Positions 28,493-46,627 of a stretch of DNA of 64,000 nucleotides are shown here, piece after piece (the stretch's first letter is position 1; each line of letters opens with the position of its first letter). The notes under the pieces were generated by a model, which was given only the letters and a program-made list of their open reading frames with translations, had not been told where the DNA came from and searched no databases. The DNA lies in NCBI RefSeq assembly GCF_910596095.1, contig NC_056534.1, forward strand, positions 35,697,588 to 35,761,587. Reading direction: 5' to 3'. Source of the stretch: Thunnus maccoyii (taxonomy: Eukaryota > Chordata > Actinopteri > Scombriformes > Scombridae). Both the position numbers and the translations under genes were made by a program.

Positions 28493-31400
28493 ATGACTTT
28501 ATTTGGACTGTTGTTTTTTGTTCTGGCTTTATCAAACTTCTTTACCGTCTATAGCAGGCCGGCGGGTAAGTTTCACAAATTTTATTATTCAGAAGTTATT
28601 CAAAATATATAAACATTTATGTTTTGTTTACAATATTTATGATTATTTTGAGTTAAATTCTTCATTTGGTGGTATTGTGTGGTATTTTTTTACTATGCAA
28701 ATTAGGAAAATGTTCTTTCCAGGCAAGCTGTTGTTAATTAAAGTGAATTACAGATTAATTCCCTGTAATCTGCCATCTTTGATTTATATAATTTAATTTA
28801 CATTTTTTATTTTTCAGATACCTTTATTGAATTTTCTGAATATAAATCAAGAAACAACCCATTTTCACAGATTCACTCGTCACACATACAAATATTAACA
28901 AATACCTATTCATCCCCATAAATAAAGAGAAGAGACAAAAACATGGAAGACACCTGTTACACACATTAATGGAGATCTTTGTGGTTTCTGGTTGAATTGT
29001 GTGCTTGAGCTGTTTGGATTTGAGGTTTGCCATTAACTCCTCTATCTAGCATCAGTGAGATGGTGGTACAGTGCTATAAATATCCACTTGGTATGACCTA
29101 ATATAAGTTTCAGATAAACTTTTAAATGCATTGTTGCACAAAATGGATTTTGACCCCCATCACTTACATTGAAGGCTTTTAATAGTCAGTATGAACATGA
29201 TTACAGCAAGGAAAACCTGACACACTTGAAAAACCGTGCACCTATCCTTTAAATGATCTTCTTTTGCATTGTTGTCAGGCGGCCACCTGCGTAACATGGA
29301 CAGCTTCATCCGTGCTGTGCAGCAGGTTGAAGACTCCAACCCCGGTCTGTCCCCCCTGGCTCTAGTCAGGGCCCTGCGGAGGACTGCCGGCCACGACGAT
29401 GCAATGACCATCCACTTCCTGGGTGCTTCATACAATCACAGTGATGCTGAGGTCCTCAAGACAGCCATCCTCAACGCCTCATCCTTCAGCTTTTTTGACA
29501 AGGCCATCCACCACATTGTGACAGATCATGGGGAGGAACGAGGGGTGGTTCTCGTTCCAGATGGCACCACAGTCGCCCTTGCACCCTTACTGCTAGGAAT
29601 CGAATCAGGACTGAAAGCTAAGATGGAGGCGACGCCAGCTGTTGGGATCTTCCCTCTCACCTTAGGCAGGACCCTGGGCCTGTCCTTCCTCAGCCTCCAG
29701 GACTTCCCACCATCTAGTCGCCTAGGGCCTAACGGGTGCTGGGACAGCGTGGACCACCCTAAGGTGTTCAAGCTGTCTAGGCCTGCCACTCTGGCCACTG
29801 ACGCTGTTATTAATGGGGGCATGGATGGAGCTATATTGGGCATGGACCTCAGCAGTCTACCTGCATCTGAACAGCCACAGGCCCTCAGTGTCATTTTGAA
29901 GGGATACTATAGTTTTATTCTGCATGAGGGGCAGGGTCTTGATGCTGTGTCCAGCCATGTTAGCCCGAGGCGGAGGGAGATCTCCAAATCCATGCTGGAG
30001 CGCCTTGATCTTCACAGCCAGGTGATGGAGACGCTAGAATTGGTCTGGAAGTTGGAGAAGACAGAATGGATCAGTCTGGATACGGGAGTGAGGAAGGCGG
30101 TGAAAGATGGGATGCAGGCATTTATACACAAATACTGGGGTGAGCTATGAAATGATCAAAAAGTACACAAAGTAGGGCTTCATTATCAATTAATCTACCA
30201 ATTATTTTCTCAATTAATTGATTGGTTTGTAAAATGTTAACAAATTGTGAAAAATATCCCTCACAAGTTAAAAGACCCATGATGTTAAAATTAGAGCCGC
30301 AGCGGTTAGTCGATTAATTGATCGACAGAAAATTCATCAGCAACTATTTTGATAATTTATCACTTGTTTTAGTCATTATTTAAGCAAAAATGCCAAAAAT
30401 GTTTTGGTCTCAGCTTCTCAAATGTGAAGATTTGCTGCTTTTCTGTGTTTTATTATTTTATTATTGTAAATTGAATATCTTTGGGTTTTGGACTCTTGGT
30501 CAAACAAAACATTTGAAGACATCACTTCAGACATCAAAATTACAGAAGGCATTTTTCACTATTATCTGACATTTTATAGACTAAACAACTAATTACGATT
30601 AATTCTCTGTCAATTGACTAATTGATTAGTTGACTAATTGTTGGCTATAGCCCTAGATAGCCCCCTTGATGGTTAAACAATGCTGTGCAGTAGTCTCTTT
30701 CATCAGTTAGGACTGTACTGTCACTGACAACTCTGAGATAGCTCAAATAATAGAGGAGCCAGATACCAATATTGAATTTCCAAGTTTAAAAAAAAAATTT
30801 TTTTTGATAAGGATCCCTTACTTAAAACCAGGCTCAACAGCAGTGTTTTAATGCCCTTTCTGGTTGAAAGTTTTGAGTCTGACCTCATGTGCGATACCTG
30901 CCTAGCATGGCAGACTAGCAACCAGCTAATGAAATTAGTGGAGCATTTAGCAGCTAGAGAGACAGATATTTCCCTCAGGAGTTAGTACAGGCCAAAAGAA
31001 AAAAAAAGCTAAAGGGAAAGTGAATATTGGACTTAAATTCATCCTCACAACTCCAAATGAATACTAATGTCGCTAATGAGGTTTATTTTATGAGGTGATA
31101 ATACTTTATGTCAGTGTTGTGTTTGTTGCTCTGCCCCCAAAAGGTAAAAAAATCAATCAATGCAAATTGTTTTTTATAGAACCTACACTCACTGGCCACT
31201 TTATCTGTGCTTACCTGTGCTTTAGCTACACCTGTACAATCTAATGCAATCCAATATAGTTTGGACACAAATTCTACTTTTGCGAAACTTAAAGGTGCAC
31301 TATGTCAGATTTGGCCATCTGCACCAAACAAATAGGGGGCAGCATCTCACCAGAAACCATTCTCATAGAATTATGACTCACTAAACATAGTGTAAAGCTT

Positions 31401-33692
31401 ACTGTTTACAGTGGATCAGATCAGTTCATCGGATCATGCAGCTGAGATGACCAGCTGTCTCACCCAGCCAGCAGCTGCAGCAGCAAATTTCCAAATAGGC
31501 ATTATTTGGATAAACTGACGACATATGCAGAATCTAAATGGTTACTTTCTTGCCTGAAAAAATATTAAAACTTAATAAAGGGATATATAAACAGTCCTAC
31601 CGTGAAAATTTCAGCCTGGCTCCACCATTGCTGCTGGTGCTCAGGGCAGCACTACTTCTTCTTCCTCTCATGTTGGACTGAGGGCAGACTGGACACTACA
31701 GTGACCTACTGTCACCTCTGAGGTACCCAGTGGTATTATTAGACAGTACAGGCCGAAGCTAGCTGGGTAGCATGCTAACTTCAGTAGATATCTCTGCAAC
31801 ACAATACATGAACATGTTTGACATAACGTCAAAAGTGTTATTTCTTCACATGCCGTTGATAATTTTAGTTCATTTTTGAATGTTTTAAACTTAAATTCTG
31901 GCCAAATCTTACATAGTGCACCTTTAATAAAGTTTAGTTTGATAATCTTGACCGGTATCTTTTCTCCTTTTTCCTCCAGACTGCCCTCAAATTATTCCTC
32001 GCTGTCAGTGGGGGGCAAAGGCCTACAAGGGTACACCTATCCCACTGTCTCTACCCCTTCAATTTCTCTACGTTCACCACACCTATGAGCCGTCCTCGCC
32101 CTGTTTGTCCTTCCCAAACTGCTCTCGCAACATGAGAGCCATGCAGCGTTTCCACCAGGAAGACCGCAGCTGGAACGACATAGGATACAAGTAACTGATC
32201 TTTAAAGGAATAGTGCTGGACATTTTGGGAAATACACTTATTTGCTTCCTATATTCTTGCTCAGAGTTAGATAAGAAGAGCAATACCGCTTTTATGTCTG
32301 GATTAAGTATGGAGCTCAGCTGGATCAAGGAGGCTTTAGTTTAGTTTAGCCTGTACTTTGACATAGCCTGGCTCTGTTAATACATTGTATCTTGTTTGTT
32401 TAATCTGTGCACAAACAGAAATGTAAAAATAACAATGTTACGCCCTATAAAACTACAATTTGTTATTTTTACATTTTTACAGATATATGATCCAGGCTAG
32501 CTGTTTATGCTAAGCTAGGCTAACTAGCTTTTAATGGAGATAATTAATGCTGGTGGAGTATTTGATATCTTTTTTTGTACATATTGTTGAAAAGGTGTCA
32601 CACTCTATAAGTCATTTGGTATTAATTCTTTGTATCTTGTACTATTTGTGTCATAACATTAAATTACATTCAGTAATGTATGTAATTTTTCTGTATGACC
32701 TTTGCACCCTCAGCTTTGTGGTTGGCTCTGACGGCTACGTTTATGAAGGCAGAGGTTGGAACCTCCACGGCATACACACCAGGGGACACAATTCCAGGGG
32801 GTACGGCGTGTCAATCATTGGTAACTACACCGCCACTCTGCCGTCTCGCCATGCCATGGACCTGTTGCGCCATCAACTAGTCCGCTGTGCAGTAGATGGA
32901 GGAAGACTGGTTGCCAACTTCACAATCCATGGCCACAGACAGATGGTGAACTACACTGCCTGCCCTGGAGACGCCTTCTTTTCAGAAATAAGAAAGTGGG
33001 AGCACTTCAAGGTAAGACAACTGTCACTTTTGTCTTATTTGAACATTTAAAAGGGTTTCATGAGAGTTAGTTATGAGTTAGTGAGTTAATTCTTCAGATT
33101 TTTAACATGGCAGACCTCATTCAGTGCAGCGATAATTTAAATCAGTGATGCTTTGAATGATGGTCTGTCTGGTCATCCTCGCATGTAGAGTGAAATAGTG
33201 AGTATAGAGCTCATTCACGCCTGTGTTTAGATCCGTTGTTATACATCAAAGGTAGAAAGATCTTCAGGACATCATGTAGGATGAACCATGTTGATTTGCC
33301 AGTTAATTTATCTGTTTAATTAGTGGAGTTTATTCTCCTTGTTAGGCAGATCTTCACAATATAAAAATTATATTACAGTATAATAATCATAATAAGCAGT
33401 ATGGAACTTATGTGATCGAGATTTTTAGGCAAATAAAGCATAAATAAATGTATTTCTGATAATCTGACTTTATTTGTAGTTATGCTGGTGGTTGTTTAGC
33501 TTATAATGATTGCTAACTGGGGGTTTTGTAGGTTTCTCTATGGGAGTAAGACTTTATTCCAACTCAGTGGGACAGAAATCAAAAACTTTTCAACTCTAAC
33601 CTTTGAAGTACTTCAGTCCTGATTCACAGTTGTCTTATTTCTTCCTTCTTATGATTTTACAGGAAACTGTCTCTCCAAAAACAGAAGAATGA
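28493..33692 (+). CDS. pglyrp2: Peptidoglycan recognition protein 2-type amidase, complete, 5 coding exons
   Basis: Secreted Zn-dependent N-acetylmuramoyl-L-alanine amidase that cuts the lactyl-amide bond between MurNAc and the stem peptide. Exons 28493-28565, 29279-30139, 31980-32190, 32714-33011, 33663-33692; phases agree, 1473 nt, 490 aa. Residues 1-22 form a signal peptide (MTLFGLLFFVLALSNFFTVYS). Residues 25-311, mostly one 861-nt exon, are the family's long N-terminal region. The PGRP/amidase_2 domain starts near DCPQIIPRCQWGAK (312). Catalytic residues match active family members: His344 in VHHTY, Tyr381 in DIGYN, His456 in GHRQ and Cys465 in ACPGD, so an active amidase is expected rather than a binding-only PGRP. 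AATAAA follows at 33710. Introns 3 and 4 contain transposon and repeat insertions. Alternative: another long fish PGRP paralogue; the N-terminal region favours PGLYRP2. Confidence 0.94.
30175..30655. repeat. AT-rich teleost repeat (AACCCAAAGATATT .. GATTAATCGATTA family), tandem copies
   Basis: Just inside pglyrp2 intron 2. Contains GAGCCGCAGCGGTTAGTCG and TTGACTAATTGATTAGTTGA ends and ATATCTTTGGGTTTTGGACT. Further copies or fragments: 22060-22345, 25130-25410, 34500-34695, 43985-44075, 61385-61610. Confidence 0.6.
31289..31927. mobile_element. MITE with TTAA target duplication in pglyrp2 intron 2
   Basis: TTAA flanks both ends. The termini are inverted repeats of 24 bp starting AGGTGCACTATGT, with one mismatch. 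No coding capacity. TTAA duplication points to piggyBac-type mobilisation; this is inferred from structure. Confidence 0.8.
32208..32545 (+). repeat. Teleost interspersed repeat (GGAATAGT..TTTTGGGAAATA family) in pglyrp2 intron 3
   Basis: Begins 17 bp inside the intron with AAAGGAATAGTGCTGGACA and carries the GAGTTAGATAAGAAGA and GCTAAGCTAGGCTAAC blocks of a family seen again at 44.10 and 55.53 kb. Old and diverged. Confidence 0.55.
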
Positions 33693-38479: not shown

Positions 38480-38733
38480 TGAGTGCAACTCATTTTAAAC
38501 GGCGGAAGGCTTCCCGCAGTGAAGACGCTCCCGGTGGAGTAGGGCGCTGTGCAGAGGACGGAGCAAAACGGCATCGGATCCGGAACGCGGCGCTCACGCG
38601 CACGGTGGAATCCTGGGGTAAGTCCCGGTGCCTGTTACGTCAGCGAGGGCAATTTCCTGTAAATCAGCTGCTGTGCCGTCAAGTTTTCCCAGTGGCAAAG
38701 GGAAAAGGGGAGTAGCAGGCGAGACAAGGCGGT

Positions 38734-38745
38734 GAAAGTGAAACT
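38734..38745 (+). promoter_or_regulatory. Interferon-stimulated response element upstream of the first g-type lysozyme
   Basis: GAAAGTGAAACT is a perfect match to the ISRE/IRF consensus GAAANNGAAACT. It lies 165 bp upstream of the first lysozyme ATG and 11 bp upstream of the TATA-like box. The aligned position in the second copy (41223-41234) reads GAAATAGAATAC, which has lost the second GAAA. Confidence 0.65.
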
Positions 38746-38755
38746 GAACACGAAC

Positions 38756-38764
38756 ATTTAAATA
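38756..38764 (+). promoter_or_regulatory. TATA-like box of the first g-type lysozyme
   Basis: ATTTAAATA, conserved in the second copy at 41246-41254 within the shared block CGAACATTTAAATA. This places transcription start near 38785-38795. Confidence 0.45.
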
Positions 38765-38909
38765 GAGCCATTCCTGCATGTTGACGGAGACGGAGGACAC
38801 GGTATTATAGCTTTCACTTTTATTATTTTTTATAATTTTTTATCATTTTATTTTATTCTCGAAACTTTTCCAGTTTTGAGAGGACCAATCAGAAGAGCAA
38901 ACAGCAAAA

Positions 38910-40110
38910 ATGGGTGAGAGATTGCGTCGTTTTTAATGTGGAAGGAACTTGACTTTGAGCCGTGAACACACACAGGAAACAATAGTATTCCTCAGACTTC
39001 TAAAACAAGCCTAGACTGTGCCTGTTTTTTTTACTTCTCTTTTTAGATTTGTGTTTTTGTAGCTGCTGTAGTGTCATGCTGTATACACACACACACACAC
39101 ACTACTATGGCTCTTGTTTGTAAGGATGTGTGGGATATGCAACTGTTAAGTCCTTTCAAGAGTAAAAATAATTTCATATTATTATTATGAACATTTGTAG
39201 GTTATGGAAACATCATGGATGTTGAAACTACTGGTGCTTCAGAGAAAACAGCCCAGCAGGACAGTCTGGGATACGCAGGTAAACGTCTCTGCAGTAGAGA
39301 AACACAGGAGCTGATTTGATCAAGAAATTGTAGAAATGTAATGAAGCCTTCATCTAAGTTTAATAGAATTTGATGCATTTGTTGCACTGAGGCCATATTC
39401 CTGTTTGATTTCTCTGTAAAGGTGTGAAGGCGTCACACACCATGGCAGAGACTGATAAGGACCGAATGAAAAAGTACAAGTCCATCATCAGCAAAGTGGG
39501 AGGCAAATATGGAATCGAACCTGCTCTCATTGCTGCCATCATCTCCAGAGAGTCCAGGGCTGGAAATGTGCTGCATGATGGCTGGGGAGACTATAACCCA
39601 CAAAGAGGAGCGTATAACGCCTGGGGACTGATGCAGGTTTTTAACAAATACTACTGTTTTACTCTTAGTAGAGTCTCACATTACAATACAATAACAACAA
39701 TGTTCATCCTGTTTTATTCTCATTTCTGTAGGTTGATGTCAATCCTAACGGAGGTGGACACACTGCACGGGGCGGGTGGGACAGTGAGGAACATCTCTGC
39801 CAAGGCACAGAGATCTTGATTTATTTCATCGAACGGATCAAAACCAAGTTTTCTGGCTGGAGCCCGGAGCAGCAGCTGAAAGGTTTGTTTGACTGAAACA
39901 GTAGATTCTCACGTGCACCGAATGGTTTCACACTTTTTTTTTCATTTGTCGTCATTTGTACTTTTTGTCTTTGCAGGAGGGATAGCATCCTACAATATGG
40001 GAGACGGAAACGTCCATTCGTATGATGGAGTGGATGCCAACACAACAGGTCGAGACTACTCCAATGATGTTGTTGCCAGAGCTCAGTGGTACAAAAACAA
40101 TTTTTTTTAA
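38910..40110 (+). CDS. lyg: Goose-type lysozyme, copy 1, complete, 5 coding exons
   Basis: Muramidase (GH23) that hydrolyses the MurNAc-GlcNAc bond of peptidoglycan. Exons 38910-38913, 39201-39278, 39422-39636, 39732-39882, 39977-40110; the first coding exon holds only ATG plus one base. Total 582 nt, 193 aa, typical for fish g-lysozymes, starting [15 protein letters not shown]. Catalytic residues by family alignment: Glu71 (ISRESRAG), Asp84 (GWGD) and Asp101 (QVDVN). There is no signal peptide and only one cysteine, as usual in fish members, so export would be unconventional or release by lysis. AATAAA lies at 40206. The upstream region has a perfect ISRE and a TATA-like box, so interferon induction is likely. 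It forms a tandem pair with the gene 2.45 kb downstream (82% identical protein). Confidence 0.96.
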
Positions 40111-40205
40111 AAGCTGAAGCTGTCCACAACAAAATTCTCCTCAAGATCTCCTTCAAATCATGAAGAAAACAATGTAATGAGTGTAATTTTTCAAAACTTT
40201 AGATT

Positions 40206-40211
40206 AATAAA
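40206..40211 (+). other. Polyadenylation signal of lysozyme copy 1
   Basis: AATAAA 96 bp after the stop codon; the same signal follows copy 2 at 42661-42666. Confidence 0.6.
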
Positions 40212-40657
40212 CATAATACAAAGCAAAAACACAAATGATGTATCTGTTTATTGGACTCAGTGTGAACTCTCACTGTGATAAGAAAAGTAATATTTTTGTA
40301 GCTTTGTGTACTGAACTACACTGCTCTTCAGAGATCATCTTATAATAATGATGCAGCACCACATTCATTCTATCAATTTCTTTCAACTGCTTTCAAAAAT
40401 CATGTAGTGTGTCACCAGTCTGTGTCAAAGCTATACTTCTGCAATCCAGCGGCTCCCAACCAGGTAGATAAGCCTGAGAGGCTGCGAGATTACGAAAACG
40501 AAAGGAAAGCAGTGTGTGTAGTTCCTGCAGAAATTTGTCAGGAAGGAGACCAACAAGAGATTCCTGCAGTATGCTGAGGGGGCTGAGATGGACTGGGAGA
40601 AAATCCAGATGAAGATAAGAGATGGAGTTGTCTAAATGTTTAGGGGACTTCTCTCTA

Positions 40658-40704
<47 letters not shown>

Positions 40705-41094
40705 GAACACTTGTGTAAGCTTTTGGTCACGCCCTGTATTGTGTTGTTTTCCTTCTGGCTCTTTTTTTTTTTTTTACTTCTGTGCACAACTGCTGGTTTA
40801 ATTCGTGTATGTGTTGTTAAGCGTCCATGATGGTGTATCTCCCTCTTGTTATGGCCACTTGAATCAGGTCATATGCAGAATACTTCTTCCGTGTGAAATT
40901 GAAAAACTCAAGTTCAAAGTTCAAAACTAGTGAAATGTTATTCAGTCTGAAAGTGAATCAAAATCAGCATGAATATTGTCGTTGATGATAAAAGAGTGAG
41001 TTTTCAGTACCTGCTCTGTGAAATATCAGTGAGTAAAAAACGAACAGATGCAGAATTATGTGCTTTATTATTTTCAAATCTGTGTTAATGACAC

Positions 41095-42988
41095 GAAGAG
41101 TCCCGGTGTCTGCTACTGTCAGTGAGGGCAATTTCCTGTTAATCAGCTGATTTGCCGTTAAGTTCTCCTATTTCTTCACGGGCGAACCAGTCAGACTTGC
41201 TCCATAACGAACTTTGCAGGGGGAAATAGAATACGGAACACGAACATTTAAATACAGCCATCCCTGCATGTTCGCACCACAAGGCAGACGGAGGGACACC
41301 GTGTTGCAGCTTTCACATTCCAGTTTCGAGAGGATCATCAGAAGAGGAAAAAGCAAAAATGGGTGAGAGATTGTGTTGTTTTTACTGTGGAAGGAAGGAA
41401 ATTGGCTTTGAGCCGTGAACACACACACAGGGAACAATAGTATTCCTCAGACTTCTAAAACAAGCCTAGACTGTGCCTGTTTTTTTTACTTCTCTTTTTA
41501 GATTTGTGTTTTTGTAGCTGCTGTAGTGTCATGCTGTATACACACACACACACACACTACTATGGCTCTTGTTTGTAAGGATGTGTGAGATATGCAACCG
41601 TTAAGTCCCTTCAAGAGTAAAAATAATTTCATATTATTATTATGAAAATTTGTAGGTTATGGAGACATCATGCGTGTTGAAACTACTGGTGCTTCAGAGA
41701 AAACAGCCCGGAAGGACAAGCTGGATTACACAGGTAAACGTCTCTGCAGTAGAGAAACACAGGAGCTGATTTGATCAAGAAATTGTAGAAATGTAATGAA
41801 GCCTTCATCTAAGTTTAATAGAAATAGATGCATTTGTTGCACTGAGGTCATATTCCTGTTTGATTTCTCTGTAAAGGTGTGAAGGCGTCACACACCATGG
41901 CAGAGACTGATCAGGGCCGAATGAAAAAGTACAAGTCCATCATCAGCACAGTGGGAGACAAATATGGAATCGATCCTGCTATTATTGCTGGCATCATCTC
42001 CAGAGAGTCCAGGGCTGGAAATGTGCTGCATGATGGCTGGGGAGACTATGACCCAAAAAGAGGAGCGTATAACGCCTGGGGACTGATGCAGGTTTTTAAC
42101 AAATACTACTGTTTTACTCTTAGTAGAGTCTCACATTACAATACAATAACAACAATGTTCATCCTGTTTTATTCTCATTTCTGTAGGTTGATGTCAATCC
42201 TAGCGGAGGTGGACACACTGCACGGGGCGGGTGGGACAGTGAGGAACATCTCTGCCAAGGCACAGAGATCTTGATTTATTTCATCGAACGGATCCAAAAA
42301 AAGTTTCCTGCCTGGAGCCCGGAGCAGCAGCTGAAAGGTTTGTTTGACTGAAACAGTAGATTCTCACGTGCACCGAATGGTTTCACACTTTTTTTCCCCG
42401 TTTGTTGTCATTTGTACTTTTGTCTTTGCAGGAGGGATAGCATCCTACAATATGGGAGACAAAAACGTCCGTACCATTGAAAGAATGGATGTCGGCTCAT
42501 CAGGTGGAGACTACTCCAGTGATGTTGTTGCCAGATCTCAGTGGTACAAAAACAATTTTTTTTAAAAGCTGAAGCTGTCCACAACAAAATTCTCCTCAAG
42601 ATCTCCTTCAAATCATGAAGAAAACAATGTAATGAGTGTAATTTGTCAAAACTTAAGGTGAATAAACATAATACAAAGCAAAAACACAAATGATGTATCT
42701 GTTTATTGGACTCAGTGTGAACTCTCACTGTGATAAGAAAAGTTAAAAGTAATATTTTTGTAGCTTTGTGTACTGAACTACAACTGCTCTTCAGAGATCA
42801 TCTTATAATACTGATGCAGCACCACATTCATTCTACCAATTTGTTTCAAATGCTTTGAAAAATCATGTAGTGTGTCACCAGTCTGTGTCAAAGCTACACT
42901 TCTGCAATCCAGCGGCTCCCAACCAGGTAGGGGTGTCGCAAGATAAACCTGAGAGGCCGCGAGATTATGAAGAGGAAAGGAAAGCAGA
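41095..42988 (+). repeat. Tandem duplication unit 2 (lysozyme locus)
   Basis: Direct repeat of unit 1, covering promoter, all exons and introns, the 3' untranslated region and a few hundred bases beyond. The end boundary (CGGCTCCCAACCAGGTAGG) is shared with unit 1. Confidence 0.85.
41359..42565 (+). CDS. lyg: Goose-type lysozyme, copy 2, complete, 5 coding exons
   Basis: Exons 41359-41362, 41656-41733, 41877-42091, 42187-42337, 42432-42565; 582 nt, 193 aa, with exon sizes and phases identical to copy 1. Catalytic Glu71, Asp84 and Asp101 are kept, so it is expected to be an active muramidase. It differs from copy 1 at 35 residues: 7 in exon 2, 9 in exon 3, 5 in exon 4 and 14 in exon 5. No codon differs silently. 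Intron 3 (95 bp) is identical to copy 1 and intron 2 differs at 3 of 143 bases. The exon-5 stretch [17 protein letters not shown] looks closer to the bird form than copy 1 does. The ISRE is degraded, which suggests different control. AATAAA lies at 42661. Confidence 0.95.

Positions 42989-43502: not shown

Positions 43503-46627
<3,125 letters not shown>

Follow-up and report, generated by a model that had tools for sequence, protein, structure and literature searches.

The window, a stretch of 64,000 nucleotides corresponding to C2:35697588-35761587 (contig C2 of assembly G000), contains two genes for g-type lysozymes, which are arranged head to tail in tandem on the plus strand and whose differences are the subject of this work. 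Since the protein of the second copy is 100% identical to the record P0001, named lysozyme g-like of Thunnus maccoyii, the DNA was taken as originating from this species, the southern bluefin tuna. Copy 1 (38910-40110) comprises exons at 38910-38913, 39201-39278, 39422-39636, 39732-39882 and 39977-40110, and copy 2 (41359-42565) exons at 41359-41362, 41656-41733, 41877-42091, 42187-42337 and 42432-42565. According to the re-derived exons, each copy consists of five exons, the first with just four coding bases, and of 194 codons including the stop, i.e. 193 amino acids, without any indel between the coding sequences. All eight introns of the pair show GT-AG boundaries, and an AATAAA motif was found 96 bases 3' of the stop codon in each copy. 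The protein of copy 1 matched the cod g-type lysozyme 3gxk of the PDB over residues 1-193 (E value of 1.9e-68) and altogether six distinct solved g-type sequences at E <=0.001. A Foldseek comparison of the AlphaFold model of copy 2 yielded nine PDB matches at E <=0.001, all of them g-type lysozymes with template modelling (TM) scores of 0.82-0.91 and 3mgw as the best one; the mean predicted local distance difference test score (pLDDT) of this model was 85.9, with only 55-71 for residues 71-110, among which the catalytic residues lie. These residues, Glu71, Asp84 and Asp101, correspond to the glutamate and the two aspartates whose catalytic roles are treated in passages of PMC4914998 and PMC4243810. 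They are the same in both copies, as the first-pass annotation had stated, and do not vary in alignments comprising 24 and 38 sequences. The stretch from codon 71 to codon 84 showed no difference between copy 1 (39550-39591, with Glu71 at 39550-39552 and Asp84 at 39589-39591) and copy 2 (42005-42046); Asp101 is encoded at 39735-39737 and 42190-42192, respectively. Judged from these sequence and model comparisons, both copies are apparently intact goose-type lysozymes.

The coding sequences differ at 44 bases, which are distributed over 35 of the 193 codons (7, 9, 5 and 14 in exons 2-5), and all 35 differing codons change the residue; nine of them carry two base changes. Re-derivation of the exons and alignment reproduced these counts of the first-pass annotation, as well as its values for intron 2 (3/143) and intron 3 (identical over 95 bases). 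Its statement of zero silent codons holds true codon by codon, as no codon differs silently only, but codons 63 (CTC/ATT) and 164 (TCG/ACC) each hide one obligatory silent step, and codons 25 and 137 contribute half a silent step each under path averaging. On careful alignment, the NG86 counting method accordingly gave 3.0 silent differences at 125.7 sites compared to 41 replacement differences at 453.3 sites. The description of the introns as near-identical rested on introns 2 and 3; introns 1 and 4, which had been omitted from that comparison, differ at 10/287 and 4/93 positions with two indels each. Pooled, the introns showed a divergence of 2.8% (17/618) compared to 7.6% (44/582) for the coding sequence, so that the exons are 2.8-fold more diverged than the introns. 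For replacement sites alone (9.0%) against silent sites plus the non-coding sequence in the interior of the repeat unit (2.0%) the factor amounts to about 4.4, and the tenfold faster divergence claimed before was too high. The silent rate (3/126, 2.4%) and the interior non-coding rate (16/805) agree with each other (p 0.73). The replacements are densest at codons 160-175, where 12 of 16 codons differ, in agreement with the exon 5 cluster pointed out earlier. The whole dense block covers codons 160-185 (40006-40083 in copy 1, 42461-42538 in copy 2) with 14 of 26 codons differing and represents, according to the alignment and the model, the loop that precedes the last helix together with the beginning of this helix.

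The dN/dS check (ratio of replacement to silent divergence) proposed in the first-pass annotation was run pairwise on the two copies and gave a value of 3.97 by counting (one-sided Fisher p 0.006). A pairwise GY94 model, purpose-written for this analysis, gave an omega of 6.9 by likelihood (likelihood ratio 12.2, p 4.8e-4). In neutral simulations, with 4000 runs at each of three transition/transversion settings, not a single run lacked a silent-only codon; the minimum was one and the means were 8.3, 9.1 and 10.0. The replacement differences (41/453) are in excess over those at silent and interior non-coding sites taken together (19/931; one-sided Fisher p 8e-9). With exon 5 excluded and the introns as neutral yardstick, the excess was still determined as 24/349 versus 18/903 (one-sided Fisher p 5e-5), while exons 1-4 against silent sites alone reached a p of 0.05 only. 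Altogether, it is very probable, as far as sequence comparison can tell, that positive selection acts on two apparently working lysozymes.

The character of the changed residues was determined by comparison with 177 proteins, or 174 once three scombrid rows were set aside, with fewer letters at gapped columns. The 35 changed sites lie in variable columns of the family, with a mean entropy of 1.69 compared to 0.86 bits, and seven changes (21, 63, 168, 172, 173, 179 and 185) strike conserved columns. The residue of copy 1 occurs in other fish lysozymes at 35 of 35 sites and that of copy 2 at 33 of 35 (up to 174 sequences), while about 18 of 35 would be expected to occur in those lysozymes if residues of copy 2 were replaced at random through single base changes, a value that serves as a yardstick and not as a formal test. 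Since the residues at the changed sites mostly occur in other fish lysozymes, the changes are regarded as tolerated ones and not as decay. Charge is altered by 18 of the 35 changes. Mapping of the changed residues on a structure, as proposed earlier, was done on the copy 2 model and showed that helices are avoided: only 11 of 35 changes fall within helices, which cover 105 of 193 residues (p 0.004), and codons 160-175 form the loop linking the last two helices. On this model, the pattern is one of selected change outside the core. The replacement excess without exon 5 (introns as yardstick), the avoidance of helices and the unchanged catalytic residues all fit the selection that the first-pass annotation had claimed.

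A comparison of the edges of the repeat unit with its interior gave a different picture of the age of the pair. At the 5' edge (38640-38988 in copy 1), comprising the 5' flank and the start of intron 1, 5/42 and 6/75 positions differ beside exon 1, and the sequence farther out is poorly alignable. In the interior (38989-40372), which is taken as a homogenised tract, the non-coding sequence differs from copy 2 at 16/805 positions (2.0%), and at the 3' edge (40373-40510) at 10/138, with the homology fading at about 40510-40520. The edges are 7-9% diverged compared to 2% for the interior (5' edge 11/117 versus 16/805, p 2e-4; 3' edge p 2e-3), with boundaries that were chosen after inspection. Since the edges are more diverged than the interior, the latter was probably homogenised by gene conversion. 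The non-coding differences within the interior are furthermore clumped, with nine neighbour pairs at <=12 bp compared to 3.2 expected (P 1.5e-4), which is what patchy conversion would leave. In intron 4, all four mismatches fall within the final 36 bases (39941-39976, versus 42396-42431 in copy 2), directly ahead of the divergent exon 5, with indels at 39940 and 39962.

For the history of the residues, the two copies were compared with the proteins of Thunnus albacares (yellowfin tuna, P0002) and Scomber scombrus (P0004) and with P0003, which is placed among the scombrids by the trees and is probably a scombrid protein; these make up five scombrid rows. The complete set comprised 179 rows (both copies and P0002-P0178), from which the trees took 56, 46 or 22; P0179-P0188 are absent from those trees and in part present in the catalytic-residue alignment. 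The underlying protein searches listed the best 120 of 866, the best 120 of 258 and 13 of 13 matches. At eight sites (40, 41, 163, 164, 166, 168, 170 and 179) copy 1 groups with P0002 and copy 2 with P0004 and P0003. Accordingly, Scomber scombrus and P0003 have the same exon 5 residues R163, T164, E166, M168, V170 and S179 as copy 2, whereas different residues, for the most part common in the other fish lysozymes compared, are found in copy 1 and T. albacares. M168 and S179 are rare, occurring in 2 and 6 of the 174 other fish lysozymes. In the exon 5 tree of 46 rows, copy 2, P0003 and P0004 form a branch with a support of 94, and in the whole-length tree of 56 rows copy 1 stands with P0002 and copy 2 with P0003 and P0004 (supports of 89, 93 and 85, none starred). 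The quick tree searches with 56 and 46 rows were poor; with 46 rows, a constrained tree of exons 1-4 surpassed the "free" one by 12 units, and for this reason the question was repeated with IQ-TREE constraint trees of 22 rows. With these (LG+G4), joining the two Thunnus copies on exon 5 was rejected with a p-value of the approximately unbiased test (p-AU) of 0.016 and a difference in log-likelihood (delta lnL) of 26. Part of the protein contrast therefore probably predates the genus, as far as shared residues can indicate. The exon 5 type of copy 2, which is 77% identical to exon 5 of Salmo salar, may represent the older state; a word-based search with this exon (42461-42538) found 13 proteins, including those of Salmo salar, other salmonids, smelts and pipefishes, and was incomplete, as Scomber P0004 was missed.

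Other differences are restricted to one copy. Among the five scombrid rows, ten sites have a residue private to copy 1 (including N5, D8, N86, Q88, K136, T137, S140 and R175) and nine one private to copy 2 (including K21, D25, D55, G66, S105 and S185), and these private changes are probably younger. P0002 resembles copy 1 at 24 of the 35 sites and copy 2 at nine, with other residues at two, and this mosaic is arranged in blocks (8 runs compared to 14 expected, P 0.007). Two explanations are conceivable: about ten residues of T. maccoyii copy 1 have changed since the split of the two tunas, or the loci exchange blocks. Of the earlier claim of strong diversifying selection after a recent duplication, the selection was confirmed by an omega above 1 in counting and likelihood. 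The recent duplication was not, as the edges of the unit exceed the interior in divergence and the exon 5 types are common to other scombrids. The objection that orthologues might trace the exon differences to an older paralogue applies in part, namely to exon 5 and codons 40-41 with eight clean sites out of 35, while conversion from the older lysozyme cluster found in this genome is excluded as their source.

We assume, with somewhat more confidence than doubt, that selection acts on the proteins while conversion homogenised their background, and that the contrast is partly older than it looks. A tandem duplication older than the 2% intron divergence would have given rise to the two lysozymes, and one or several events of gene conversion would have overwritten the inner part of the unit, so that introns and silent sites stayed alike. 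Selection would have kept and added amino acid differences against this conversion. The exon 5 loop at codons 160-179 and codons 40-41 would retain an old contrast from before the separation of tunas and mackerels, as suggested by the shared residues, while the other, copy-private changes would have been added later. The result would be two muramidases with the same chemistry and different surfaces, possibly suited to different peptidoglycans or to the escape from bacterial lysozyme inhibitors such as PliG, and either of these might be the driver of selection. PliG was crystallised with the salmon g-type lysozyme (entry 4g9s), and in one passage of PMC4914998 it is described to have suppressed all lysozyme activity in extracts of cod spleen and head kidney. 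A more far-reaching version, according to which old lysozyme lineages from before the tuna/mackerel separation survive as scattered residue differences, with conversion having erased nearly all silent and intronic traces (third bases in changed codons included) and selection having kept almost every replacement, appears doubtful to us.

Several observations weigh against an old, conversion-masked contrast. The tract boundaries were set once the pattern had been viewed, and, by eye, a neighbourhood of non-coding and replacement islands is limited to the end of intron 1 and, in looser form, to the region ahead of exon 5. Conversion and orthology both rest on one gene pair plus proteins, P0003 among them. 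Under a mixture model, the set of 46 rows gave only a borderline p-AU of 0.067 for joining the Thunnus copies on exon 5, and placing all five scombrid rows together on this exon was not rejected (p 0.475). Exons 1-4 did not resolve the question and, with 22 rows, lean slightly to the Thunnus copies being together (delta lnL 2.9). At sites 77, 87, 112, 133 and 144 both copies and P0002 carry the same residue, different from P0003 and P0004, which is also predicted by a young duplication. Finally, an old exon 5 should carry some silent divergence, yet codons 160-179, with their 14 silent sites, show a single such step. This count is in line with a silent divergence (dS) of up to about 0.2-0.3 and unlikely at 0.5, so that an old exon 5 is compatible with the few silent changes, without much room.

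A first rival explanation is a recent duplication within the tuna lineage, followed by diversifying selection through point mutation alone, with introns alike as little time has passed. The divergence of about 2% at both silent and interior non-coding sites, an omega well above 1, the private changes in both copies and the five sites at which the Thunnus copies are alike and differ from P0003 and P0004 agree with it. It does not account for the unit edges being 7-9% diverged, nor for the protein of T. albacares already being of the copy 1 type (24 of 35 sites), and with R163, T164, E166, M168, V170 and S179 present in copy 2, Scomber and P0003, copy 1 and P0002 would have had to revert several times to residues that are usual in other fish; we regard it as rather unlikely. 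A lower probability is given to the arrival of the replacements as blocks, either as exon pieces converted from a third, older paralogue or as retained allelic variation. The block mosaic of P0002 and the conflict of the exon 5 tree speak for it, but silent differences ought to arrive along with any diverged donor sequence, and just 3 were counted in 126 sites. The five other lysozyme-g genes found among the best-scoring candidates of the genome, at C2:35.556-35.586 Mb, were rejected as donors, as they are only 58-64% identical in DNA to the pair with many silent differences (at 32-45% of the same-residue codons). A replacement of exons via cDNA, which would change exons and keep introns, was rejected on the basis of the almost complete lack of silent changes, because any diverged donor would bring such changes.

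The remaining two explanations carry very little weight. An assembly artefact, i.e. two haplotypes of one gene misplaced in tandem, has to be considered as a single assembly was examined and P0001 and P0002 are the only Thunnus-named entries among the best 120 of 866 matches. It is nevertheless highly improbable, as unrelated sequence separates the copies, their 5' flanks are alignable only partly, and a protein divergence of 18% without a silent-only codon is unlike ordinary alleles. Relaxed constraint on a decaying duplicate, for which the location of the 35 sites in more variable columns (entropy of 1.69 versus 0.86) could speak, would lead to an omega <=1, whereas 4-7 was measured. Both copies possess an intact reading frame together with intact splice sites, poly(A) signal and catalytic residues, and the residues used are ones seen in the family. 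This explanation, rejected by the replacement excess over neutral sites, is the least credible of all. The combination of selection and conversion remains the interpretation that we prefer.

Compared to known systems, as far as these are described in the papers cited here, the pair is filed with duplicates that are kept alike by conversion while selection holds their proteins apart. Two papers deal with goose-type lysozyme duplicates of vertebrates and fish, namely Irwin 2014 (PMC4243810) and one on the LygF1 genes of cod (PMC4914998), and a tandem arrangement in zebrafish and medaka is reported there. The tuna pair resembles these vertebrate and fish duplicates in family, catalytic residues, lineage specificity and tandem arrangement, whereas some cod duplicates have altered catalytic residues (PMC4914998), which the tuna pair keeps. 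In the gibbon L/M opsins (PMC3213168), likewise in tandem and with introns more alike than exons, conversion and selection were invoked as well, but replacement divergence is not significantly higher than silent divergence there, while in the tuna the silent sites are as alike as the introns and only the replacements are high. A raised silent divergence inside selected exons, as expected from the opsins, was not found in the tuna pair (3/126, 2.4%, no different from the interior non-coding sequence); the related idea of a peak of divergence by Teshima and Innan is described in PMC3924837. Ruminant CEACAM32 (PMC7042247) is a duplicate with conversion in introns and the leader exon and none in the exons of the Ig-like domains, differing in that it belongs to another family and that conversion was detected with several paralogues. 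The phospholipase A2 duplicates of snake venom (PMC1783844) share with the tuna pair a dN/dS above 1, with values near zero at the catalytic residues, and most selected residues lie outside the helical scaffold. They represent a large toxin family with many sequences, compared to one lysozyme pair in the tuna. For the mussel g-type pair MGgLYZ1/2 (PMC3448621), an invertebrate case, adaptive evolution is proposed in the title and the term "positive selection" is present. This term was absent by term search from PMC4243810, PMC4914998 and PMC11576321, which deal with the evolution of g-type lysozymes, as were "gene conversion" and "concerted" from PMC4243810. A literature search found no paper combining "lysozyme g", "Thunnus" and "tandem duplication", and by term listing, in the part of the T. 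maccoyii genome paper PMC9670116 covered, "lysozyme" was not mentioned.

In the surroundings of the pair, further observations were made. At least five other lysozyme-g genes, the best-scoring candidates in the genome, lie on the minus strand at C2:35555965-35586254 (L019-L022), and all five are without residues 87-92 of the tandem pair. Two of them, g2 and g4, differ in exons 3 and 4, although the 45 residues translated from their exon 5 are identical; this identity results either from conversion or from constraint. A domain of the N-acetylmuramoyl-L-alanine amidase type (Pfam Amidase_2, E value of 1.3e-11) was found at 32544-33050 on the plus strand, some 6 kb upstream of the lysozymes, so that two kinds of peptidoglycan-cutting gene are neighbours on the same strand. 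This amidase may be PGLYRP-like, and the stretch 29257-30150 (plus strand), which gave no Pfam match, is perhaps part of it. Downstream of the lysozymes, 44207-44398 comprises a direct tandem duplication of 96 bases with 97% identity.

Coding sequence that diverges faster than introns between duplicates is, as far as known, best known from venoms, whose introns are better conserved than their exons, and from sensory receptors. In the tuna it concerns plain antibacterial enzymes, in which catalysis is untouched and a surface loop was remade. The pair also carries the warning that a recent duplication need not follow from near-identical introns. Under the far-reaching version that appears doubtful to us, the two genes would be a record, at the grain of single codons, of what selection keeps against strong gene conversion. 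The pair offers a direct test of whether the variety of bacterial peptidoglycan or lysozyme inhibitors drive the change of immune enzymes.

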